From positions 1 to 58,284 of the forward strand of contig JADHWK010000012.1 in the NCBI GenBank assembly GCA_016783505.1: a stretch of DNA of 58,284 nt, read 5' to 3'. This document shows, in pieces, positions 91-48,179 of the stretch. Below the pieces are notes generated by a model. The model ran no database searches and was not told where the DNA came from. It saw nothing but the letters and a program-made list of their open reading frames with translations. The position numbers were made by a program, and so were the translations under genes. This DNA comes from Candidatus Zhuqueibacterota bacterium. GTDB taxonomy: Bacteria; BS750m-G25. Numbering within the stretch: position 1 is the first letter of the stretch; each line of letters opens with the position of its first letter.

Positions 91-951
91 ATGGAATCGG
101 ATGTTATTATAGATACTATTCCAAGAATTCTGGAGAAGCATGATGGGAGTCGGGGGGGGCTCATCTCAATGCTTCAGGACATCCAGGCTAAGTATGGCTA
201 TCTTCCTGTAGATGCGCTAAAGATAATGGCTGAAAGGACGGGTCGTTCTCTGGTTGACATATACGGGGTGGCAACCTTCTACAAGTCCTTCAGCCTGACC
301 CCTCGGGGCAGGCACCTTGCTTCGGTCTGTCTGGGCACGGCCTGCCACGTCCGCGGCGCACCTTTCATCGCTGAGGAGTTCGAGAGACAGCTGGGCGTCA
401 GTGCCGGCGGGACAACTTCGGATAAGGAATTCACGCTGGAGACAGTGAACTGCCTGGGTGCCTGTGCGCTGGGGCCAATCGTTGTCATAGATGGCCATTA
501 TTTTTCAAACGTTAAGACCGTAAAGGTAAAGCAAATACTGAAGAAAGCCCGCGCTGGGCTCGACAAGGTCGAAGTCAAGGCGGACAAGCGAATCTTCCCC
601 GTTGAGGTCAGCTGTCCCCACTGCAACCACAGCCTGATGGACCCGAGCCATCTTGTTGATGGTTACCCATCAATCCGGGTGACGGTATCTTTCGGGCGCA
701 AGCACGGCTGGCTCAGGTTATCCTCACTGTACGGCAGCTACAATATCGAATCAGAGTACGAGATCCCTATGGATACCATAGTTCACAATTTCTGTCCCCA
801 TTGCCATGCGGAGCTTGTTCGGGCCTCAAGCTGCCCGGAGTGCGGTGCGCCGATGGTTCCGATGATCGTTCGCGGGGGGGGCATGGTGGAGATCTGCTCG
901 CGCCGCGGGTGCAAGAGTCATAGGTTGGACCTGAACGGCGTAAATTTTTAA
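91..951 (+). CDS. NuoE/HydC-like [2Fe-2S] subunit with Cys-rich C-terminal tail
   Basis: 286 aa. Residues 1-155 match the thioredoxin-like [2Fe-2S] subunit of complex I and of multimeric hydrogenases (NuoE/HydC/HoxE family). The four ligands are visible as C80, C85, C121 and C125 (motifs CLGTAC and CLGAC). The family normally ends near residue 160. Here about 125 residues follow, with paired cysteines at 175/178, 235/238, 248/251 and 269/274 that look like zinc ribbons or a further metal site. The protein should pass electrons between the flavin subunit encoded 7 bp downstream and the other Fe-S proteins. First gene of a four-gene run. Family assignment is firm; the role of the tail is unknown. 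Confidence 0.9.
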   Translation: MESDVIIDTIPRILEKHDGSRGGLISMLQDIQAKYGYLPVDALKIMAERTGRSLVDIYGVATFYKSFSLTPRGRHLASVCLGTACHVRGAPFIAEEFERQLGVSAGGTTSDKEFTLETVNCLGACALGPIVVIDGHYFSNVKTVKVKQILKKARAGLDKVEVKADKRIFPVEVSCPHCNHSLMDPSHLVDGYPSIRVTVSFGRKHGWLRLSSLYGSYNIESEYEIPMDTIVHNFCPHCHAELVRASSCPECGAPMVPMIVRGGGMVEICSRRGCKSHRLDLNGVNF

Positions 952-958
952 CTGAACA

Positions 959-2809
959 ATGAAAAGACTAAAATCTATAGATGATTTCAAGGCACTTCAG
1001 GGGCTAATAATTGCTGACCGGGACCCCAGTATTTCCACCATCGTTATTCCGGCGGGGACCTGCGGGCAGGCGAGCGGTGCCAATGATCTCATGCGCATAA
1101 CGAAGCGTGAGCTTCTGGCCAAGGGACTGACCGATAAAATTCATCTGCGCATCACCGGCTGCCATGGATTTTGTGAGATGGAACCGTCGGTACTCATCGA
1201 ACCCCAGGGAACCTTCTACCCGAAAGTAAGCATTGAGGATATGGTGCGGATCGTCGAGGCCATTGAAAAAGGGGAGGTTCTTGAAGATTTGTTCTTCGTA
1301 GACCCGGAAACCGGGGTGGCGGTGGAAAAGCAAGACGACATTCCTTTCTTCAAAAAGCAGGTTAGGACCATCCTGGCCCGCAACGAGAGAGTTGACCCGA
1401 TTCGTATTCATAATTACATTGAGAGCGGCGGTTATTCGGCCTTGGCTGGGGTGCTTACGAATGGTAAACCCAAATGGGTGGTGGAGCAGGTCAAGTCGTC
1501 CGGGCTGCGCGGCCGCGGGGGGGCTGGTTTCTCCACTGGCCTGAAGTGGGAGATGCTGGCGGGGCAATCGAATGGGCATGGCAAATTCCTCGTGTGTAAT
1601 GCAGACGAGGGCGATCCCGGTGCCTATATGGACCGCAGCGTGCTCGAGGGCAACCCGCACTCAATCATCGAGGGAATGATCATAGGTGCCTATGGGACTG
1701 GAGCGACGGAGGGGGTGGTTTACGTCCGCAACGAGTATCCGCTGGCTATCAAGCACCTGGTCATCGCCCTCGGTCAAGCGCGTGGTCTGGGGCTCCTGAG
1801 TGATGACATCCTGGGAACCGGATTTTCCTTCGACATCAAGATCGTGAGGGGGGCTGGTGCGTTTGTGTGCGGTGAGGAAACGGCGTTGATCAGGTCCATT
1901 GAAGGAAAGATGGGCGAGCCGCGCCAAAGACCCCCTTTTCCCGTGCAGAAAGGTATAGATGGTAGGCCTACGGCGATTAACAACGTGGAAACCTGGGCCA
2001 ACATTCCCATCATCATCGGGGATGGCGCCCAGCAGTTTGCGAAGATCGGAACGAAAGGGAACTCCGGCACCAAGATATTCAGCCTGGTCGGAAAGATAAA
2101 GAACACCGGCTTGGTTGAGGTGCCAATGGGCATCACCATCGGCGAGATCGTCTATGACATCGGCGGCGGTCCAGTGGACAAGGCGAAGATCAAGGCGGTG
2201 CAGACGGGGGGCCCCTCCGGCGGCTGCATCCCGGCTCAGAAGTTTGACCTGCCCATTGACTACGACAGCCTGATCGAGGCGGGATCAATCATGGGTTCCG
2301 GCGGCATGATCGTCATGGACGAGAACACCTGTATGGTTGATGTCGCCAAATACTTCATGAACTTCCTGAAGGATGAATCCTGCGGCAAGTGTCTCACCTG
2401 CCGCAAAGGCACGCAGCGGATGTACGAGATCCTCGACGACATATCAAAGGGGCAAGCGACGCTCGAACACTTAGAGCTTCTTGAAGAACTAGCGGAAGTA
2501 GTGAAGGACACCACGATGTGCGGCCTGGGGCAGACGGCGCCGAACCCCGTTCTATCCACGATACGGTACTTTCATGATGAGTACATCGAACACATCAAGA
2601 ACAAGCGGTGCCCGGCGGGCGTCTGCAAGGAACTCATCACCTACTTCATCAACGAAAACTGTACGGGCTGCATGGTCTGCCTGCGGGATTGCCCGGAGGG
2701 GGCCATAACCGGCGAGAAAAAGGAATTACACGTCATTGACCCCAGCAAGTGTATTAAGTGCGGGGTTTGCAAGAGTGTCTGCAAGTTCGATGCCGTGGAC
2801 GTTAATTAG
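959..2809 (+). CDS. NuoF/HydB-like NADH-binding FMN/Fe-S subunit
   Basis: 616 aa. Domains in order: an N-terminal thioredoxin-like [2Fe-2S] region (C35, C68, C72); the FMN/NADH-binding core (GRGGAG at about 185-190, then NADEGDPGAY); an SLBB segment; the [4Fe-4S] site of NuoF (SCGKCLTCRKG near 474 with a distal CGLGQ cysteine); and a C-terminal 2x[4Fe-4S] ferredoxin (CTGCMVC near 567 and CIKCGVC). This is the long HydB-type architecture of electron-bifurcating hydrogenases rather than plain NuoF of about 430 aa. It is expected to oxidise or reduce NAD(P)(H) in the cytoplasm. It lies 7 bp after the NuoE-like gene and 31 bp before the next Fe-S subunit. Confidence 0.92.
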   Translation: MKRLKSIDDFKALQGLIIADRDPSISTIVIPAGTCGQASGANDLMRITKRELLAKGLTDKIHLRITGCHGFCEMEPSVLIEPQGTFYPKVSIEDMVRIVEAIEKGEVLEDLFFVDPETGVAVEKQDDIPFFKKQVRTILARNERVDPIRIHNYIESGGYSALAGVLTNGKPKWVVEQVKSSGLRGRGGAGFSTGLKWEMLAGQSNGHGKFLVCNADEGDPGAYMDRSVLEGNPHSIIEGMIIGAYGTGATEGVVYVRNEYPLAIKHLVIALGQARGLGLLSDDILGTGFSFDIKIVRGAGAFVCGEETALIRSIEGKMGEPRQRPPFPVQKGIDGRPTAINNVETWANIPIIIGDGAQQFAKIGTKGNSGTKIFSLVGKIKNTGLVEVPMGITIGEIVYDIGGGPVDKAKIKAVQTGGPSGGCIPAQKFDLPIDYDSLIEAGSIMGSGGMIVMDENTCMVDVAKYFMNFLKDESCGKCLTCRKGTQRMYEILDDISKGQATLEHLELLEELAEVVKDTTMCGLGQTAPNPVLSTIRYFHDEYIEHIKNKRCPAGVCKELITYFINENCTGCMVCLRDCPEGAITGEKKELHVIDPSKCIKCGVCKSVCKFDAVDVN

Positions 2810-2840
2810 CGGTTTGGATTGGAAACAAGGTCAGGATACA

Positions 2841-3518
2841 ATGATCAATCTTACCATCAATAGCTTGAATGTTTCGGTAGAGGAAGGCACAACCCTGTTA
2901 GAAGCGGCAAGATTTCTGGGATTTCATATCCCCACCCTGTGCTACATGGATGGGCTTTCGCCCTACGGGGCCTGCCGACTGTGTGTGGTGGAGATCGGGG
3001 AGGGTCCCAAAGCCAAACTGGTCTCATCCTGCACCTATCCTGCTGAGATGGGACTAAATGTACGGACGGCATCGTCGCGTGTTCGCCGGGCCCGTAAGAT
3101 GATCCTGGAGCTCTTATTAGCCTCATGCCCGCAGTCAAAGACCATCCAGGACCTGGCTGCGGCCCACGATGTACGCCAGCAGCGCTTCAAGCAGGAATAC
3201 GAGGACTGCATCCTCTGCGGTCTGTGCGTGCGAATGTGCGAGGAGCAGATGATGGCCAAGGCCATCGGCTTTCGGGGGCGTGGGGAGAACCGAAGTATTG
3301 GCACCCCGTTCGACATCACCTCGGATGTCTGTCGGCAATGCGGCGGTTGCATGTATGTTTGTCCTGCCTGTCAGCTCAGGTGTACATATACCGAGCCGGA
3401 AAAGGCCGTCTGCGGTGGCTGTGCGAACCTGAGCCCGCCCTGCCTCCAAAAGGAACAGTTTGACGATATGATGTGCTACATGGATCCCTGTGTAGCTTGT
3501 GAGATAAAGAAAGATTGA
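2841..3518 (+). CDS. HoxU/NuoG-N-terminal-like ferredoxin subunit, no catalytic domain
   Basis: 225 aa from the ATG at 2841; an in-frame upstream start at 2736 would run back into the preceding gene. A [2Fe-2S] ferredoxin fold has ligands C34, C45, C48 and C64. Two [4Fe-4S] motifs follow: C123/126/129/133 and C164/167/170/174. The HxxxCxxC cluster usual in NuoG/HydA between these parts is absent; only SCPQSK remains near residue 95. The last 45 residues carry further cysteines (177, 181, 191, 194, 201, 212, 217, 220). No H-cluster domain follows, so this is not a hydrogenase. It probably wires the flavin subunit to the FMN protein encoded next. Confidence 0.85.
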   Translation: MINLTINSLNVSVEEGTTLLEAARFLGFHIPTLCYMDGLSPYGACRLCVVEIGEGPKAKLVSSCTYPAEMGLNVRTASSRVRRARKMILELLLASCPQSKTIQDLAAAHDVRQQRFKQEYEDCILCGLCVRMCEEQMMAKAIGFRGRGENRSIGTPFDITSDVCRQCGGCMYVCPACQLRCTYTEPEKAVCGGCANLSPPCLQKEQFDDMMCYMDPCVACEIKKD

Positions 3519-3536
3519 AGAAAGGAGTATAAAACC

Positions 3537-5120
3537 ATGTCATTCTCGAGAGTAAATACTTCAGCGGCCACCCTTACCAAAAATAGGACCGAAGGTTCGG
3601 TAACGCCAATATCGGGTATGTGTGTAACCTGTGTGGACGGTTGCATTGGCATGTGCGAGATCGGCAAGTCAGCTTACCGGGGCCACGAGGTGATCTACCC
3701 GCAGCCGTTTGGGGTTATTACCACTGCTGCCGAAAAGGTATATCCTGTTGACTATTCACATTTCAATATCATGGGTACCGCCGTGGGCGCCCATGGCGTC
3801 AAGGCTGACAGCGATAAGGCCATCTTTCCGGCCGTGAAGCTTGAGGTTGCCTTCGGGCACGATAGGGGGATCAGGTTCCGTTATCCATGGGTTATCCCCG
3901 GTATTGGCTCCACCGACATTGCCAAGAACAACTGGGAAGGGTTGGCCATAGGGTCGGCGCTGGCGGGTACCGGTCTGACCATCGGTGAGAATGTGGTCGG
4001 TATGGACCCCGAAGCTGAGATAAAGAGAGGTCGGGTGGTGGATACGGTGGATTTGAAGCGTCGGGTGAAACTCTATAAGGATTACCAGCGTGACGGTTAT
4101 GGCGCCATCATCGTGCAGGCCAACATCGAGGATACCCGTCTGGGCGTACAGGAGTATGCCATCGAAAAACTCGGTGTTGAATGCGTGGAACTAAAGTGGG
4201 GCCAGGGCGCGAAGGACATCGGTGGTGAAGTCAAGATAAAAAACCTGAAGAAGGCCCAGATGTTGTATGATCGGGGCTACATAGTGATGCCCGACCCAAC
4301 CAATCCGGATGTGATCAAGGCATTCGAGCGGGGGACGTTCAAGGAGTTTGAGCGACATTCACGTATAGGTATGGTTACTGAAGAATCTTTTGCAAAACGG
4401 GTTGAAGAGCTGCGTAAAGCCGGTGCTAAATATATCTTCCTCAAGACCGGGGCTTATCGCCCGGCTGACCTGGCTCGGGCCATCCTGTTTGCATCCAAGT
4501 ACAAACTGGATCTTCTCACCGTTGATGGTGCCGGTGGAGGAACGGGCATGAGTCCCTGGCGCATGATGAATGAGTGGGGAGTGCCGCCGGTGGAACTCCA
4601 CTCCCTACTGTATCAATATGCAAAGCGTCTTGCTGACAAAGGAGAAAACGTGCCAGCATTGGCGTTGGCTGGTGGATTCACCTTCGAGGATCAAATCTTC
4701 AAAGGTCTGGCTCTGGGTGCCCCATTTGTGAAACTCATAGGAATGGCCCGGGCTCCGATCGCAGCCGCAATGGTAGGCAAGACGATCGGGATGGCGATCA
4801 AAAACCATCAAGTTCCTGTGTATATCGAGCGCTTCGGTAATTCGAAGGATGAGATTTTTGTGACCGCAGGTTCGCTGCGCAAGGAATTGGGCGACTCAGA
4901 ATTCGAGATAATACCAACCGGTGCCATCGGTCTGTATACCTATTATGAACGGCTGGCTCAGGGTCTACGCCAGCTCATGTGCGGCAGTCGGAAGTTTACA
5001 CTGGAGCACATATCACGTGATGATATAGCGACTTTGACCAGGGAAGCAGAAGAAATCAGCGGCATCAAATACATTATGAATCTGGATCGAGAAAAGGTGG
5101 ATCAGATTCTTGAGGGATGA
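3537..5120 (+). CDS. Glutamate-synthase-type FMN-binding protein
   Basis: 527 aa, preceded by a good Shine-Dalgarno (AAGGAG). Residues from about 60 onward match the FMN-binding TIM-barrel domain of glutamate synthase (GltB central domain): VDGAGGGTGMSP is the phosphate/flavin loop, followed by LALAGGF and LGAPFVKLIGMARAP. The protein has no glutaminase domain, and the usual [3Fe-4S] cysteine trio after the barrel is missing (only LMCGSRK). Instead the N-terminus carries C29-x2-C32-x3-C36-x3-C40. With the three preceding NADH/Fe-S subunits it probably forms a soluble oxidoreductase. Its substrate cannot be named; glutamate synthesis is one option and a bifurcating role another. Confidence 0.85.
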   Translation: MSFSRVNTSAATLTKNRTEGSVTPISGMCVTCVDGCIGMCEIGKSAYRGHEVIYPQPFGVITTAAEKVYPVDYSHFNIMGTAVGAHGVKADSDKAIFPAVKLEVAFGHDRGIRFRYPWVIPGIGSTDIAKNNWEGLAIGSALAGTGLTIGENVVGMDPEAEIKRGRVVDTVDLKRRVKLYKDYQRDGYGAIIVQANIEDTRLGVQEYAIEKLGVECVELKWGQGAKDIGGEVKIKNLKKAQMLYDRGYIVMPDPTNPDVIKAFERGTFKEFERHSRIGMVTEESFAKRVEELRKAGAKYIFLKTGAYRPADLARAILFASKYKLDLLTVDGAGGGTGMSPWRMMNEWGVPPVELHSLLYQYAKRLADKGENVPALALAGGFTFEDQIFKGLALGAPFVKLIGMARAPIAAAMVGKTIGMAIKNHQVPVYIERFGNSKDEIFVTAGSLRKELGDSEFEIIPTGAIGLYTYYERLAQGLRQLMCGSRKFTLEHISRDDIATLTREAEEISGIKYIMNLDREKVDQILEG

Positions 5121-5244: not shown

Positions 5245-7032
5245 ATGTTAAATTTAAATAAAATTTTATCATTTTTTTATGCGGGGCGGCGATTGCAGAC
5301 CATTTCCAGAAATTATACTCAAATTTACCGAAGGCTGAGATTAACCCTCTTTTTCCTTCTGATGGCGGTATTCATTTTTGCGCTGGTGTTTATGACCTTT
5401 CTTGTCCTGAACAACTCTCAGAATATAATGACCGAGAAGGTAAAAGAAAACCTCTCCGGCATAGCCCTGAATAAGGCCATAGCCATTGAAAATTGGCTGG
5501 CTGAGAGGATATCGGACGCCAAGGTGCTGACGGGGATGGTTGATGTTCGCAAGATAGTTAAGAACTTGATTGATACCCGCATCAGTGAGTATTCCAAGCG
5601 TAACCAAGGTGCGATCATTCGGGATTTGTTTACCCTGATGATTGAAAAATATGGGTGTTATGAAGAGATCTTTATCCTGGGGTCGGGTGGAGAACTGCTG
5701 GTCAGCTCTGGGGACGGAAATGGTCCTCGGGACTACCGGAAATTGTGGAATGATACCCCGAAGACCGGGGTTGAGATTACGGACATTTATCGGTCAGACA
5801 TTTATGATAAACCGATGATGCGGGTTTCTGCCCCCATCTATGATCTCGATGGATTCCTGATTGGGCTTTTGTTCGCGATGGTAAAAACGGACGGGATTAA
5901 GGACATCGTTAGCCAAATTGATCTGGGCGAAACGGGGGAAGCTTATCTTATAAATCAAGAGGGTATCTTCTTAACTGATTCCAAATTTGAACCGGGTTAT
6001 ATTCTATCAAAGAGGATTCATCCAGACGGAGTAGAGGGTTATCTAGGGGGAAAAGAATGGGTTGAAACCTATCAAGATTATCGCCAACGTGAGGTTTTAG
6101 GGGCTCACAGAAAAATCCCTGGGTTAAATTGGTTTCTGATCGCAGAACAGGATGCCCAGGAAGCCTTCAGAGAGGTCCACAGCCTTAGAATGAAAATCTA
6201 TCTGATCAGCATAGTGATTGTTATCCTGACGATTATTACCTCGGGTGAATTAGCCCGTAGGGTTTTCCGTCGTTTGAAGTCCGCTGACAGGGAGCTTGAA
6301 AACAAAAACGAAGAAGTTTTACGCTCTGGAAAGCTGGCCGCTGTGGGCGAAATGGCCGCGGGGATAGCCCATGAGGTAAATAACCCCCTGACTACCATTA
6401 AAACGCTAATTCAGTCTATCCTTGCCGATGCTAATGTTGATGATTTGATCCACAAAGATTTGGGAATTATTCAGAATGAGATTGACCGGATTAACCGCTT
6501 AATGTTAAGGTTTCTCCAATTTGCCCATCCCAATCCCCCGGAATTTGAAACCACTGAGATCAATCAGATTATCAGCCGCATCGTGTTATTACTCGAACAT
6601 CAGATGACCAAAGGGGGAATCCATTTTAAAGCGGCTTACGATAGATCCATTCCCAAATTAATGGTGGACCCTCACTTGTTTGGCCAGGCCTTTATGAATC
6701 TCCTGCTGAATGCCATACAAGCTACTCCGCGTGAAGGGGAAATCGAGGTGGCCACCGGGATAAATGGACAATACAAATTCGGGTCCACCAAGACCATAAA
6801 AGTAACCATTAAAGACACCGGTTGTGGAATACCCGATGGAATAAAGGATAGAGTCTTCGAGCCTTTTTTTACGACCAAACCTTCCGGAACAGGGTTGGGG
6901 CTTTCTATCTCTAAGAGTATTATTGAAAAACATGGAGGTAGTGTCGCCTTCGGTAGAAACGAGCGGGGGGGAACGATTTTTATCATTGAAATGCCCGTAG
7001 AGGAATTCGATGGAAAAGATTCTGATCGTTGA
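5245..7032 (+). CDS. Membrane sensor histidine kinase with extracytoplasmic Cache-like domain
   Basis: 595 aa. A first membrane segment at about 33-56 and a second at about 315-335 bracket a periplasmic domain of about 260 residues with double-Cache character (GETGEAYLINQEGIF near its end). The cytoplasmic part contains a HisKA dimerisation helix with the phospho-acceptor His in GIAHEVNNPL, an N-box NLLLNAIQA, a G1 box DTGCGIP, an F-box FEPFFTTK and a G2 box GTGLGLS. The gene overlaps the response regulator by 23 bp, so they form one two-component system. The start at 5245 has no strong Shine-Dalgarno. The signal sensed is unknown; Cache domains usually bind small molecules. Confidence 0.93.
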   Translation: MLNLNKILSFFYAGRRLQTISRNYTQIYRRLRLTLFFLLMAVFIFALVFMTFLVLNNSQNIMTEKVKENLSGIALNKAIAIENWLAERISDAKVLTGMVDVRKIVKNLIDTRISEYSKRNQGAIIRDLFTLMIEKYGCYEEIFILGSGGELLVSSGDGNGPRDYRKLWNDTPKTGVEITDIYRSDIYDKPMMRVSAPIYDLDGFLIGLLFAMVKTDGIKDIVSQIDLGETGEAYLINQEGIFLTDSKFEPGYILSKRIHPDGVEGYLGGKEWVETYQDYRQREVLGAHRKIPGLNWFLIAEQDAQEAFREVHSLRMKIYLISIVIVILTIITSGELARRVFRRLKSADRELENKNEEVLRSGKLAAVGEMAAGIAHEVNNPLTTIKTLIQSILADANVDDLIHKDLGIIQNEIDRINRLMLRFLQFAHPNPPEFETTEINQIISRIVLLLEHQMTKGGIHFKAAYDRSIPKLMVDPHLFGQAFMNLLLNAIQATPREGEIEVATGINGQYKFGSTKTIKVTIKDTGCGIPDGIKDRVFEPFFTTKPSGTGLGLSISKSIIEKHGGSVAFGRNERGGTIFIIEMPVEEFDGKDSDR

Positions 7033-8434
7033 TGATGACGAGAATATCCGCTATTCCTTCAGGCGGATGTTGAAAGATAAAGATTACCGGATTCTGGAGG
7101 TATCCACAGGGGAGGAGGCTATTAGGATAATATCAGAGGAATCTATAGATTTGGTCATCATGGATGTTCGACTCCCAGGAATGAGCGGGATAGAAGCCTT
7201 AAGACAAATTAAGGAAGGCCGTTCAAAATTACTTATTATCGTAATCACGGCCTATGGAACTACTGATCTGGCTATTGAAGCCATGAAGCGGGGGGCTTTT
7301 GATTATCTTCTGAAGCCCTTCGACATTGAAGAGATGAAGGATCTTATTGAGAAGGGATTGAGGATAAACCGGTTAATGAGGGACAGGGTCACCTTTCCGC
7401 TGGATGGTCAAAAAAAGGCAACCGGGGAGATGCCCATTATCGGGAAGAGTCGGAAGATGCAGGAGGTGTTCAAGACCATCGGACAGGTGGCGCAAAGCGA
7501 TGTGACCGTGTTGATTGAAGGGGAAAGCGGGACTGGAAAGGAATTAATAGCCCGGGCTATTTATCATCACAGCAACCTCGCCGATGGTCCGTTCTTGGCG
7601 GTTAATTGTGCAGCCATTCCGGAAACCCTGTTAGAGAGCGAACTCTTCGGCTACGAAAAGGGGGCCTTCACCGGGGCCACTTCTCTGAGGATTGGGAAAT
7701 TTGAACAGTGCCACCGGGGGACTATTTTCTTGGATGAAATAGGGGATATGAGCCCTTTGACCCAGACCAAAGTCCTGCGGGTACTTCAAGAACGTAAATT
7801 CGAACGGGTGGGTGGAAATAAAACGATTGAAGTGGATGTTAGGGTTATCGCAGCTACAAATCAAAATCTGTTGAAGGCTATCAAGGAAGGCAGATTTCGA
7901 GAGGATCTGTATTATCGGTTGAACACAGTGAACATCAAGCTCCCTTCCTTACGGGAGAGAAAAGAGGACATTTCAGAACTGGCCCAATTCTTCCTGGGAA
8001 AATACAATCAAGAATTTTGTCGAAACGTATATAGTATTTCAAAAGCGGCGTTAAGAAGGTTAAAAGCCTATTCCTGGCCGGGAAATGTGCGTGAATTGGA
8101 AAATGTCATTAAACGCTCGGTGTTGATGGCCAAGGGCGATACCCTCCTCCCCGACGATATAATGCTGGAGGAAGGGGATGTACCGTTGGTCGAAGAGACC
8201 CAGATTTCATCCCCAAAAGAGACTTTAGAATCACTAATTAAGAAATTTACTTATCTAGGGGATAAAGGTTCAAGGGGCCCTCTACTCCCTACCATAGAAA
8301 GACTTCTTATCATCCATGCTTTACGAGAGACCAACGGGAATCAGGTCAGGGCGGCAAAGCTACTGGGGATCAATCGGCATACCCTGAAGTATCGCATAAA
8401 AAAATACGGTATCAAAATGGATTTTAATATCTGA
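7010..8434 (+). CDS. NtrC-family sigma-54-dependent response regulator
   Basis: 474 aa. It has a receiver domain (residues 1-120, acceptor Asp in VIMDVRLPG), an AAA+ domain (Walker A GESGTGKE, sigma-54 contact loop GAFTGA, Walker B IFLDEIGD) and a Fis-type helix-turn-helix at the end (QVRAAKLLGINRHTLKYRI). All elements needed to activate sigma-54 RNA polymerase are intact. The start codon lies inside the kinase gene, implying coupled translation. Targets are not evident: I found no convincing -24/-12 promoter nearby. The preceding oxidoreductase operon is one candidate by position only. Confidence 0.95.
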   Translation: MEKILIVDDDENIRYSFRRMLKDKDYRILEVSTGEEAIRIISEESIDLVIMDVRLPGMSGIEALRQIKEGRSKLLIIVITAYGTTDLAIEAMKRGAFDYLLKPFDIEEMKDLIEKGLRINRLMRDRVTFPLDGQKKATGEMPIIGKSRKMQEVFKTIGQVAQSDVTVLIEGESGTGKELIARAIYHHSNLADGPFLAVNCAAIPETLLESELFGYEKGAFTGATSLRIGKFEQCHRGTIFLDEIGDMSPLTQTKVLRVLQERKFERVGGNKTIEVDVRVIAATNQNLLKAIKEGRFREDLYYRLNTVNIKLPSLRERKEDISELAQFFLGKYNQEFCRNVYSISKAALRRLKAYSWPGNVRELENVIKRSVLMAKGDTLLPDDIMLEEGDVPLVEETQISSPKETLESLIKKFTYLGDKGSRGPLLPTIERLLIIHALRETNGNQVRAAKLLGINRHTLKYRIKKYGIKMDFNI

Positions 8435-44882: not shown

Positions 44883-45971
44883 ATGACAGATGACGAATTA
44901 TTTATCCGCCGAACCCTCAGGTTAGCAAAAAAGGGAAAAGGAAAGACCAGTCCCAATCCCCTGGTAGGGGCTATTTTAGTTAAAGATTGCAACGTGATTG
45001 CCGAAGGTTATCATAGGGCCTGGGGTGAGGATCACGCCGAATTGATGGCACTGAAAATGGCTGGGAAGAGAGCCCAGGGAGCCACAATTTATGTCAACCT
45101 GGAGCCCTGCTGTCACCACGATAAAAAAACCCCTCCTTGTGTTGATCGTATCCTGACTTCAGGTTTAAAAAAGGTGGTAGTAGGTTCCGAGGATCCCAAT
45201 CCCCAGGTATCGGGAAAAGGTCTCGGGATTTTAAAAAATCATGGTATAGAAGTCGTTTCGTGTGTCCTTGAAGATCAATGCCGAAGGTTAAACGAGGTCT
45301 ATTTCAAAAATATTCAAACCGGTCTTCCTTTTGTAACCCTGAAGATCGCCCAGACCCTGGATGGACAAATCGCCACCCCTACGGGGGATTCCCAATGGAT
45401 CACATCTGACCGGATGCGTAGGCTTGTCCATCGGCTGCGGGCGGAAAGCGACGCCGTCTTAGTGGGAATTGGGACGGTGAAGGCCGATGACCCCGAACTC
45501 ACGGTGAGATGGGTCAAAGGGAAAAATCCCGTTCGGGTAGTGCTGGATAGCCACCTGTCCATTCCCCTAACGGCTAAGGTCCTGAACGGAAAGGATCCGT
45601 CCAACACTATTCTGTTTACCGCCACCGATATGATTCCAAGCAGAGCCGATCCCGTCAAAAAGCAGGGGGCTCGGGTCTTTTCCGTACCCACCGTTGACGA
45701 TGGCCGGTTGAATTTAAAAGAAGTATTGGTCCGATTGGGGAAGGAGGGGATCAATTCTTTGCTGGTGGAAGGGGGAAGGGAAGTGTTCACTTCCTTTGTT
45801 AAATCCCGTTTGTTTGACAAGATGATCCTGTGTATTTCACCAAAAGTTATCGGAAAAGGTCTCGGGTCTCTGGGTGACCTGGGCATTAGTCGAGTTGGGG
45901 TAGCGGTCACCTTCTCCGGGGTTCACTACCGCAGATTGAGAGATGAAATGATAGTAGAGGTCTGGAAGTAG
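44883..45971 (+). CDS. ribD: Bifunctional riboflavin deaminase/reductase RibD
   Basis: 362 aa. The N-terminal deaminase domain has zinc motifs HAELMALKMAG and EPCCHHDKKTPPC. The C-terminal reductase domain (from about 150) begins VTLKIAQTLDGQIATPTGDS and contains RVVLDSHLSIP and LLVEGGREVF. It carries out the second and third steps of riboflavin synthesis from the GTP cyclohydrolase II product. First gene of ribD-ribE-ribBA-ribH behind the FMN riboswitch. Confidence 0.97.
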   Translation: MTDDELFIRRTLRLAKKGKGKTSPNPLVGAILVKDCNVIAEGYHRAWGEDHAELMALKMAGKRAQGATIYVNLEPCCHHDKKTPPCVDRILTSGLKKVVVGSEDPNPQVSGKGLGILKNHGIEVVSCVLEDQCRRLNEVYFKNIQTGLPFVTLKIAQTLDGQIATPTGDSQWITSDRMRRLVHRLRAESDAVLVGIGTVKADDPELTVRWVKGKNPVRVVLDSHLSIPLTAKVLNGKDPSNTILFTATDMIPSRADPVKKQGARVFSVPTVDDGRLNLKEVLVRLGKEGINSLLVEGGREVFTSFVKSRLFDKMILCISPKVIGKGLGSLGDLGISRVGVAVTFSGVHYRRLRDEMIVEVWK

Positions 45972-46030
45972 AACGCAGTGGAGCGAGGGAGCAGAGGGGA
46001 GGGGGAGACTAAAGAAGGGGTTATTTGCTT

Positions 46031-46681
46031 ATGTTTACCGGTCTTATTGAGGAAATTGGCCTTATCAAAGAAAGGTCCCCCATTCGGGAGGGCTTCCGGT
46101 TCACCATCGCTGCCCAGAAGGTTTTGGAAGACCTGAAAGTGGGCGACAGCATCTCGGTGGATGGCGTCTGTTTGACGGTCACCAATCTGTTCGGAGCTGG
46201 TTTTCAAGCAGAAGTGGTAGGAGAAACCCTGAGAAAGACCACCCTTCAATACGTTTATGTGGGAGATCGGGTAAACCTGGAAAGGCCTGTAAAGCTTACC
46301 GATCGCCTGGGGGGTCACTGGGTACAGGGGCACGTGGACGGGATCGGAAGGCTGGTTTCCGTCCGTGCTAAAGGCGAAAGTTTATGGATTAAGATAGAAA
46401 TCCCTTCCGAATTGATGGTTTACGTGGTCCCCCAAGGTTCGATAGCCGTGGATGGGGTCAGCCTCACCATAGCCGGGATTGAAAGCCGTCTCTTGGGTGT
46501 TTTCTTGGTTCCCCATACCTTGAAGGCAACAACGCTGGGCTTAAAGAAAGCAGGTGATCGGGTAAATATCGAAACGGATGTGGTGGGAAAGTATGTCCAA
46601 GGTTTTTTGTCGGGGTCTCAGAAGGAGTTGACTAAGAAATGGATTTTTGAGCGGGGATTCGATCTAAGTAACCAAACTTGA
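46031..46681 (+). CDS. ribE: Riboflavin synthase alpha chain
   Basis: 216 aa from the ATG at 46031. Two homologous lumazine-binding repeats: MFTGLIEEIG ... VGDSISVDGVCLTVT, and GHWVQGHVDGIG ... PQGSIAVDGVSLTIAG. It converts two molecules of 6,7-dimethyl-8-ribityllumazine to riboflavin. It sits 59 bp after ribD in the riboswitch-controlled operon. This is the symbol for the synthase (ribC in some organisms). Confidence 0.96.
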   Translation: MFTGLIEEIGLIKERSPIREGFRFTIAAQKVLEDLKVGDSISVDGVCLTVTNLFGAGFQAEVVGETLRKTTLQYVYVGDRVNLERPVKLTDRLGGHWVQGHVDGIGRLVSVRAKGESLWIKIEIPSELMVYVVPQGSIAVDGVSLTIAGIESRLLGVFLVPHTLKATTLGLKKAGDRVNIETDVVGKYVQGFLSGSQKELTKKWIFERGFDLSNQT

Positions 46682-46735
46682 TAAATTTTGAGATGTTCCA
46701 GAGACACCGTTACGAATCAATCAGGCGCCTGACAG

Positions 46736-46905
46736 AAGCACGAAATCCGAAATCCGAAGATCGAAACAAATAAAAATGACCAAAACATAAAATTCGAAAC
46801 TATATGATTTAAACGTTTTGAATCCGCCTGCGGTGGAATATTTGAATTTTGAGTTTGTTTCGGATTTCGATATTCGAATTTCGGATTTATTTGATTTTGA
46901 ACTTA
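46736..46905. repeat. Large intergenic palindrome, family C
   Basis: Left arm CGAAATCCGAAATCCGAA and ATCGAAACAAA; right arm TTTGTTTCGGATTTCGATAT and TCGAATTTCGGATTTAT. The arms pair imperfectly over about 35 bp. It is of the widespread AAATCCGAAA-type intergenic palindromes and fills most of the 298-bp gap between ribE and ribBA. Confidence 0.65.
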
Positions 46906-46979
46906 GAACATTTGTCCTGAATACAACAAATTTATTATCCCTAAAACGGATAATTCTGTAGGTATTTTTAGGAGGAGCT

Positions 46980-48179
46980 TTGTTTAGCACCACTGGAGAG
47001 GCTATTGAGGCGATCCGGAATGGGAGGATGGTCATCGTAGTGGATGACGAGGACCGGGAGAACGAGGGGGACTTCATTATGGCGGCCGAGAAGGTTACCC
47101 CGGAGACCATTAACTTCATGGCCCACCACGGCCGGGGGTTAATCTGTGTTGCCATGCTCCCCGATCGGTTGGTACAGTTGAACCTGAAGCCCATGGTAGA
47201 GGATTCCACCGCGCTGCACGGCACGGTGTTTACTGTTTCGGTGGATGCGGCTCGCAATACCACTACGGGTATTTCCGCCCATGATCGGGCTGAGACCATT
47301 CGGGTGTTGATCAACCACAAAAGTCGTCCGGATGATTTGGTGAAACCGGGTCATGTTTTTCCCCTGATAGCCAGGAAAGGGGGGGTGCTTCGTCGGGCGG
47401 GACACACTGAAGCTGTCGTTGACTTGGCCAGGTTGTCCGGGCTTTATCCCGCCGGGGTCCTATGCGAGATCATGGACGAGGACGGCCATATGGCCCGGGT
47501 GCCCAAATTGGCCGAACTTGCCCGAAGGTTCGATCTGAAGCTGATCACCATCAAGGACCTGATCGAATACCGCCAGCGTTCAGAAAAGCTCATCGAGCGC
47601 CGGGTCGAGGTGAACCTTCCCACCCGGCACGGAAGGTTCAAATTATTTCACTATGTAAGCATTCTGGATGGACGAAACCATCTGGCCATGGTGAAGGGTC
47701 GCGTGGACGACGGGCGCCCGGTGTTAACCCGGGTGCATTCGGAATGTCTGACCGGTGATCTCTTCGGTTCCCTGCGCTGCGATTGCGGGGAACAACTCAA
47801 CCGGTCCTTAGACATGATCGCCCGGGAGGGCCGGGGTGTGTTTCTGTATATGAGGCAGGAGGGTCGGGGGATCGGCCTGGCCAATAAGCTTCAGGCCTAC
47901 AAGCTTCAGGACGAGGGCAAGGATACAGTGGAAGCCAATGAAGCCCTGGGGTTTAAGGCCGATCTCAGGGACTATGGGATCGGGGCCCAGATTCTGGTGG
48001 ATCTGGGGGTCAAAAAGCTGCGGCTGTTGACCAACAATCCCAAGAAGATCATCGGGCTGGAGGGGTATGGACTGGAGGTGGTGGAGAGGGTGCCCATTGA
48101 GGTCGGACCCACCGTGGACAACCGGGACTACCTGAAGACGAAACGGGATAAATTGGGACATTTAATATTGAATCATTAA
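46980..48179 (+). CDS. ribBA: Bifunctional 3,4-DHBP synthase/GTP cyclohydrolase II
   Basis: 399 aa, start TTG at 46980 behind AGGAGGAG; the sequence begins [20 protein letters not shown] as in the family. The RibB half shows [19 protein letters not shown] and THAxxx-type catalytic segments ([14 protein letters not shown]). The RibA half (from about 205) has zinc cysteines in [20 protein letters not shown] and the active-site [13 protein letters not shown]. It makes both precursors of lumazine from ribulose-5-phosphate and GTP. Confidence 0.97.

Follow-up and report, generated by a model that had tools for sequence, protein, structure and literature searches.

The locus at the start of contig JADHWK010000012.1 (assembly GCA_016783505.1, Candidatus Zhuqueibacterota bacterium; the whole stretch of 58,284 nucleotides that was analysed is referred to here as the window) raises the question of which reaction is served by hydrogenase-type electron-transfer subunits that have no hydrogenase beside them. 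Four genes at positions 91-5120 of the + strand encode proteins that we name E (HydC/NuoE-like), F (HydB/NuoF-like), A (resembling the N-terminus of HydA) and G (a divergent glutamate-synthase-like flavin mononucleotide, FMN, barrel). The set appears to be an enzyme of the Bfu type with an undescribed catalytic end. The function that we favour, at somewhat less than an even chance, is that of an electron-confurcating, amidotransferase-free glutamate synthase complex controlled by sigma-54.

Organization and conservation of the gene set

All four open reading frames are intact and are separated by gaps of 7 (E/F), 31 (F/A) and 18 (A/G) bases. E (91-951, + strand; 286 residues) is a HydC/NuoE-like thioredoxin-fold [2Fe-2S] protein with a C-terminal Cys-rich, zinc-ribbon-like domain. 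F (959-2809, + strand; 616 residues) is a HydB/BfuB-like NADH/FMN protein in a short form that ends in a two-[4Fe-4S] tail. A (2841-3518, + strand; 225 residues) is an Fe-S protein of the HydA-N/HoxU kind without an H-cluster; conservation indicates the ATG at 2841 as its start, and the mechanically called frame begins upstream at a TTG. G (3537-5120, + strand; 527 residues) is a glutamate-synthase-like FMN (beta/alpha)8 barrel and the predicted catalytic subunit. Over the 8.4 kb inspected around these genes, no H-cluster, formate dehydrogenase or GltD is encoded. An earlier, sequence-only reading of this DNA had described four tightly spaced HydC-, HydB- and HydA-N-like and GltB-type FMN genes with neither an H-cluster nor a formate dehydrogenase; the reading frames, the Pfam assignments and the recurrence of the set bear out the first statement, and the second holds within those 8.4 kb.

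A scan of species-level genomes gave at least 578 contigs that encode relatives of G, not all of them linked to the module, and the locus survey was made on the best 80 (81-87% identity over ~525 residues). Their hosts belong to the Planctomycetota, Zixibacteria, Calditrichota, Acidobacteriota, Coatesbacteria, KSB1, Neomarinimicrobiota, Ignavibacteria/Bacteroidetes, Latescibacterota, Armatimonadota, LCP-89, Thermodesulfobacteriota and others, at least 12 named phyla overall. The gene order is E-F-A-G in all 67 complete loci, and the module runs into a contig end in the remaining 13; wherever the spacing could be measured (77 of 77 loci), the order holds and A and G stay close together (median gap 28 bases). 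Recurrence in identical order in at least 12 phyla argues that the arrangement is not due to chance, and the neighbourhood survey proposed in the sequence-only reading thus found the four genes conserved together. When 45 diverse G proteins are placed on a tree, those linked to E-F-A fall on one side of a branch with support 99, and the link thus probably arose a single time and was retained. The high identity across phyla and the mixing of phyla on the F tree suggest horizontal spread of the module.

We infer from this conservation that E, F, A and G form one complex, a conclusion that is well supported. It is improbable, and to us the least likely of the explanations considered, that G is a separate enzyme that is only co-transcribed with a Bfu-type electron unit serving other partners. 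Homologues of G do occur alone or with other partners, as this explanation would have it, but the module-linked G proteins all belong to one clade, the order and A-G spacing are fixed, and there is no other catalytic domain for A to feed. An apparent natural A-G fusion in locus L087 was ruled out, as A and G lie in different frames there.

The E-F-A core and its exchangeable tail

The top match of F in the Protein Data Bank (PDB) is 7t2r_B, the BfuB subunit of the NiFe-Bfu hydrogenase (E 1.5e-222, residues 28-613), and HydB and further HydB-like subunits come next; the matches to NuoF and to subunits of formate dehydrogenase (~E 1e-116 or weaker) leave the C-terminal part uncovered. The Pfam domains of F are Complex1_51K, NADH_4Fe-4S, SLBB and a C-terminal Fer4 pair, and the N-terminal thioredoxin-type cluster region is present. 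Cys residues are kept in the N-terminal cluster, the NADH_4Fe-4S cluster, the His/Cys site and two ferredoxin-type clusters. In sequence alignment the window F follows 7t2r_B end to end, including the B1- and B2-type Cys, the His/Cys site and the two C-terminal [4Fe-4S] motifs. Residues F182, A202 and M204 of A. mobile BfuB are said to separate bifurcating from non-bifurcating Bfu members; the counterparts of A202 and M204 in F are A222 and M224, and no position in the alignment could be assigned to F182. Non-bifurcating BfuB homologues lack clusters B2-B5 (PMC9304861), all of which are kept, by sequence, in the window F, which by this measure groups with the bifurcating members.

The Pfam match of E is 2Fe-2S_thioredx (PF01257; 1e-44, residues 12-153), with traces of the zinc-ribbon DZR. 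Cys80, 85, 121 and 125 and Cys175, 178, 235, 238, 248, 251, 269 and 274 are kept in 56-57 of 57 homologues. The C-terminal domain (residues ~165-286), with eight Cys conserved in 57/57, has no clear family match. On these assignments the E-F core of the set is Bfu-type, which agrees with the earlier proposal that its subunits are of the B and C kinds found in bifurcating HydABC/Bfu enzymes. A consists of Fer2_4 and Fer4_7 domains (Pfam) and is predicted to hold one [2Fe-2S] and two [4Fe-4S] clusters. Its match to the NCBIfam family FeFe_hydrog_A6 is confined to the N-terminal part of that family, and neither an H-cluster domain (Pfam, NCBIfam; Fer2/Fer4 domains only in 225 residues) nor a GltD domain (Pfam) was found in it. 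Twenty-one Cys residues of A are conserved in 65-67 of 67 homologues, and eight invariant Cys lie beyond the hydrogenase-type clusters.

In 24 of the 80 loci (for example at 4163-4510 of L089) the gene for E is closely preceded by one for a small protein in which a four-Cys motif (like CTCCxxxxxCTYP...CDEF) occurs twice. This protein seems to be fused to the N-terminus of E in L030 and L064, and it belongs to no Pfam family.

The tail of F is variable. In the window it carries two [4Fe-4S] clusters, the counterparts of the ferredoxin-facing clusters B3/B4 of Bfu (2645-2797, + strand; Fer4 matches at residues 563-613), and 23 of 71 full-length homologues share this short form (~616-690 residues). 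In the other 48 (~1,050-1,120 residues) the ferredoxin tail is replaced by Fer4_20 and Pyr_redox_2, that is, by a fused GltD (NADPH) domain, and B3/B4 are absent. The earlier statement that no GltD-like subunit accompanies the set therefore holds within the window but is atypical of the family, most members of which carry GltD on F. Long and short forms interleave on a quick tree of the common part, with at least nine forced switches (starred branches), and on that tree the tails of F have been exchanged repeatedly. A like replacement of B3/B4, by DPD_II and an FAD domain, is reported for the BfuB of sub-type I [FeFe]-BfuABC of Hydrogenedentota (PMC11406978) and corresponds to the long form of F; the catalytic end of that system is an H-cluster hydrogenase, whereas that of the module is a GltS-like barrel. 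The absolute conservation of the core stated for the Bfu family (PMC9304861) contrasts with the loss of B3/B4 to GltD in most module members. The tails of F could serve as a natural series of swapped low-potential inputs with which to study electron splitting and merging in Bfu enzymes.

The barrel of G

In G, Pfam detects Glu_synthase (PF01645) over residues 279-400 only, at a weak but significant 56 bits; there is no NCBIfam match, and no natural protein among the PDB sequences was matched, only designed TIM barrels with a low score. A profile built from 24 G sequences aligns with the GltB profile at 97% probability (hhalign), and this comparison marks G as a highly diverged relative of GltB. 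Together with the Pfam assignments of E, F, A and G, this completes the profile search of all four proteins that the sequence-only reading had put forward as a check.

The pocket motifs of glutamate synthase (GltS) can be recognized in G. The stretch K220-W-G-Q223-G-A-K226-D-I-G-G-E231 (4194-4229, + strand) is the counterpart of GltS KxxQGAKPGxGG in the hhalign alignment, and its K..QGAK..GG pattern is invariant in 76 of 76 G proteins and across subfamilies down to 41% identity. K220, Q223 and K226 align with the K, Q and K of the GltS motif, which we take to be the 2-oxoglutarate ligands K966, Q969 and K972 of the ferredoxin-dependent enzyme (Fd-GltS) of Synechocystis. A GGTG loop (4536-4547, + strand), the counterpart of GltS GGTGASP, is present in 121/121 G rows and 9/9 GltB references. 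The [3Fe-4S] motif of GltS, present in the same nine references, was found in 0/76 G proteins. G has instead an N-terminal CxxCxxxCxxxC motif (C29, C32, C36 and C40; 3621-3656, + strand), a putative [4Fe-4S] entry cluster, in 120 of 121 rows; it too is invariant down to 41% identity. The active-site signature of the hydroxyacid oxidases, (S)NHGxRQ, occurs in 0/121 G sequences.

The structural comparison is less decisive. In a first model of G (predicted local distance difference test, pLDDT, 79) GltS and the hydroxyacid oxidases were not separated. For a second model (pLDDT 83; predicted template-modelling score, pTM, 0.86), the first Foldseek hit by E-value is GltS with 2-oxoglutarate (1ofd), and GltS chains have the top TMq (0.48-0.49) among the rows listed, with hydroxyacid oxidases and isopentenyl diphosphate (IPP) isomerase following at a short distance. 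Among the VIA rows listed for the same model GltS is absent, and other FMN barrels tie at Z 24-25.

These results modify the earlier description of G as a stand-alone glutamate-synthase FMN domain: the relation to the GltB barrel stands, but the [3Fe-4S] motif is lacking, an N-terminal four-Cys motif is present, and there are clades of G without E, F and A. Outside the module, G paralogues are found alone, beside GAF-ANTAR proteins, or in operons with a sigma-54 regulator and haem-oxygenase-like proteins. One subfamily, 53-55% identical, lies in operons that encode a sigma-54 regulator, a kinase and one to three haem-oxygenase-like proteins of the CADD/PqqC type, with no E/F/A (L129, 7816-13482; L132, 6696-12961; L133, 6473-13193), and the L129 operon also contains a hemerythrin.

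A GltD-like NADPH domain is present on two thirds of the F homologues, as it is on StnC (PMC10482914), and would suit a transhydrogenase of the Stn/Nfn kind acting on NADH, NADPH and ferredoxin, with G a regulatory or vestigial flavoprotein. We regard this as unlikely. In StnABC, the Nfn-Bfu transhydrogenase, the GltD-like domain lies on the NuoG-like subunit (PMC10482914), and, unlike in StnABC and the Sporomusa-type Nfn (PMC10482914, PMC7483475), GltD in the module is fused to the B subunit or absent (window) and an FMN barrel is added. The GltD tail is missing in a third of the homologues and has been exchanged at least nine times on the F tree, whereas G is kept in all; the invariant pocket motifs and four Cys of G would be unexpected in a vestige; and an NfnAB-like pair is encoded separately in the window genome.

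Proposed function and nitrogen context

In the reading that we favour, E, F, A and G would assemble into a single cytoplasmic enzyme, with E and F as a Bfu/HydBC-type electron core (FMN and clusters). NADH would donate electrons at F. The second donor in the window form would be reduced ferredoxin at the two-[4Fe-4S] tail, and in most relatives it would be NADPH at the GltD domain fused to F. The Fe-S chain of A would convey the electrons to G, entering at the N-terminal four-Cys cluster and reducing the FMN of G, on which 2-oxoglutarate and ammonia would condense to an imine that is reduced to L-glutamate. Since there is no glutaminase domain, the ammonia would be either free or delivered. 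The 2-oxoglutarate + ammonia/glutamate couple lies at about -0.12 V, well above NADH and ferredoxin, so that bifurcation from glutamate is not feasible and the electrons would converge downhill, that is, confurcate. Such downhill merging has been proposed for Nuo-Bfu and Rub-Bfu (PMC9304861).

The nitrogen genes of the hosts are partly consistent with this. The GltS glutaminase domain (PF00310) was detected in 0/18 module genomes, some of which may be incomplete as metagenome-assembled genomes (MAGs). It was found in 0/12 module-type and 79/173 G-negative genomes (p 0.001, for two genome sets pooled and with relatedness ignored). No other strong GltB-type barrel occurs in 14 of the 18 module genomes, and the weak hits in the remainder resemble IMP dehydrogenase (IMPDH)-type barrels; a candidate second GltB-type barrel in the window genome (contig C10) was ruled out, being an IMP dehydrogenase by sequence. 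Glutamine synthetase (GS) is present in 24 of 24 genomes checked. The closed chromosome CP070718.1 (L038/G061) encodes the module and GS, and no ELFV-type or large-type glutamate dehydrogenase (GDH) and no glutamate synthase (GOGAT) were detected in it; the module is thus the only recognized candidate for net glutamate synthesis there. GDH genes lie near the module in ~10 loci and directly after G in the closed genome L110. Riboflavin-type genes follow just downstream of the module and GDH in L110, and genes for riboflavin, a flavin precursor, are found in the window itself at 44883-48179, RibD and RibBA among them.

Several observations weigh against glutamate as the product, and most of them would equally suit a Bfu-type oxidoreductase in which G acts on another substrate, whether a different 2-oxo or 2-hydroxy acid, an amino-acid imine or an unknown compound, its GltS-like residues binding a related dicarboxylate. 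G is only distantly related to GltB and lacks any natural PDB sequence match; hydroxyacid oxidases, type 2 IPP isomerase and IMPDH match its fold almost equally (Z 24-25 in VIA); and the next ligand of the GltS 2-oxoglutarate site, a Gln, is Glu231 in G. The operons with haem-oxygenase-like proteins suggest that the chemistry of G may differ from glutamate synthesis in some subfamilies; glutamate synthesis would not predict these neighbours or the hemerythrin, which holds our confidence in the substrate to a moderate level at most. ELFV-type GDH is also present in 16/18 module genomes, so the module is not the only glutamate route of those hosts, and the co-presence is unexplained. Glutamate formation from NADH alone is already exergonic, so that it is not evident why a bifurcation-type core would be needed. 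The PF00310 search can overlook divergent split glutaminases, of which L105 has one likely case, and most of the data come from MAGs. Set against another substrate are the absence of the hydroxyacid-oxidase signature from all 121 G sequences while K..QGAK and GGTG are kept, the lack of detectable glutaminase domains in the module genomes, and the GDH and GAF-ANTAR neighbours, which suit nitrogen metabolism. We treat another substrate as a serious possibility, though a less likely one than 2-oxoglutarate.

The glutamate reading has a wider form, which we hold with more reserve: the modules would constitute an undescribed, cross-phylum class of glutamate synthase that uses neither glutamine nor glutaminase, confurcates electrons from NADH and ferredoxin or NADPH through a swappable input, and replaces the ATP-costly GS-GOGAT route in many uncultured anaerobes. 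If so, an ammonia-assimilation enzyme common in sediments and the subsurface has been overlooked, and the production of glutamate without detectable GDH or GOGAT in anaerobes such as the CP070718.1 host would be explained. The gain could be glutamate at low ammonium, sparing the ATP of GS-GOGAT.

Relation to known enzymes

The module shares with the Bfu family (BfuABC: HydABC, NiFe-Bfu, Rub-Bfu and Nuo-Bfu; PMC9304861) the BfuB/BfuC-type core and its cluster Cys, and with Bfu Types 2 and 3 a layout of a BfuA-like subunit plus an extra subunit for the third substrate. It differs in that this extra subunit is a glutamate-synthase-like FMN barrel, which does not appear among the third reactions in Table 1 of that classification. 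The known ends are hydrogenase, formate, CO, quinone and others; none listed there forms an amino acid, and glutamate is not mentioned anywhere in the paper (PMC9304861). The set matches no member of the published classification, and no description of the E-F-A-G gene set was found in the literature searched (without supplementary files), in keeping with the suggestion of the sequence-only reading that the enzyme is uncharacterised.

With glutamate synthase (GltB/GltD and Fd-GltS) the module has in common the FMN barrel, K..QGAK..GG, GGTG and, in most relatives, a GltD-like NADPH domain. It lies outside glutamate synthase proper because two defining features, the glutaminase domain and the [3Fe-4S] motif, are lacking; the N-terminal four-Cys motif and the supply of electrons through a Bfu-type core are further differences. 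A free-standing FMN-domain subunit is also found in the archaeal-type split glutamate synthase, which, unlike G, has CxxCxxC ferredoxin-type motifs, the [3Fe-4S] motif and a separate glutaminase subunit (references L116, L117, L125 and L126).

Considered as a whole, the sequence-only reading is partly supported: the core and the conservation of the set stand, and the points on GltD and on a stand-alone domain are corrected.

Regulation

Directly 3' of the module the window encodes a histidine kinase with a dCache sensor (5245-7032, + strand; dCache_1, HisKA and HATPase_c in Pfam), a probable regulator, and a sigma-54-dependent response regulator of the NtrC/AtoC type (7010-8434, + strand; Response_reg, Sigma54_activat and HTH_8), the probable activator of the operon. 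About half of the loci have a kinase/sigma-54-regulator pair in the neighbourhood of the module, mostly upstream of it, and the regulators in relatives are ~40-43% identical to the window response regulator. Sigma-54-like sites were found in 23/57 operon-start regions and in 3/259 other genes of the same loci, with 2/57 on the opposite strand; the test regions were somewhat longer than the controls (738 against 510 bases), but this does not explain the excess of hits. No such site was seen 5' of the window's own module in the 90 bases available before the contig end. A dedicated sigma-54 two-component system would thus turn the operon on. The 'GOGAT' operon GSU1235-1239 of Geobacter was not used as a cultured example, as its annotations fit a split archaeal-type GOGAT equally well; the RpoN promoter predicted for it (PMC2725144) is not support for this module.

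Other features of the genome and window

A second Bfu-type operon is present in the same genome (contig C61, locus L134, 2761-8701). It encodes a NuoE-like protein, a small protein like the N-terminus of BfuB, a 1013-residue BfuB-GltD fusion and a 582-residue subunit with a NuoG/HydA-like N-terminus, the remainder of which matches HdrA2 and in which no H-cluster domain was found. To judge by these domains it looks like an Hdr-linked Bfu enzyme. In the window, positions 8528-31371 form a metal/metalloid resistance island with genes for an ArsP-type permease, small thioredoxins, an SBF/ACR3-type transporter, CDF efflux, outer-membrane/HlyD/RND efflux with heavy-metal-binding domains, a P-type heavy-metal ATPase and a DsbD-like protein.

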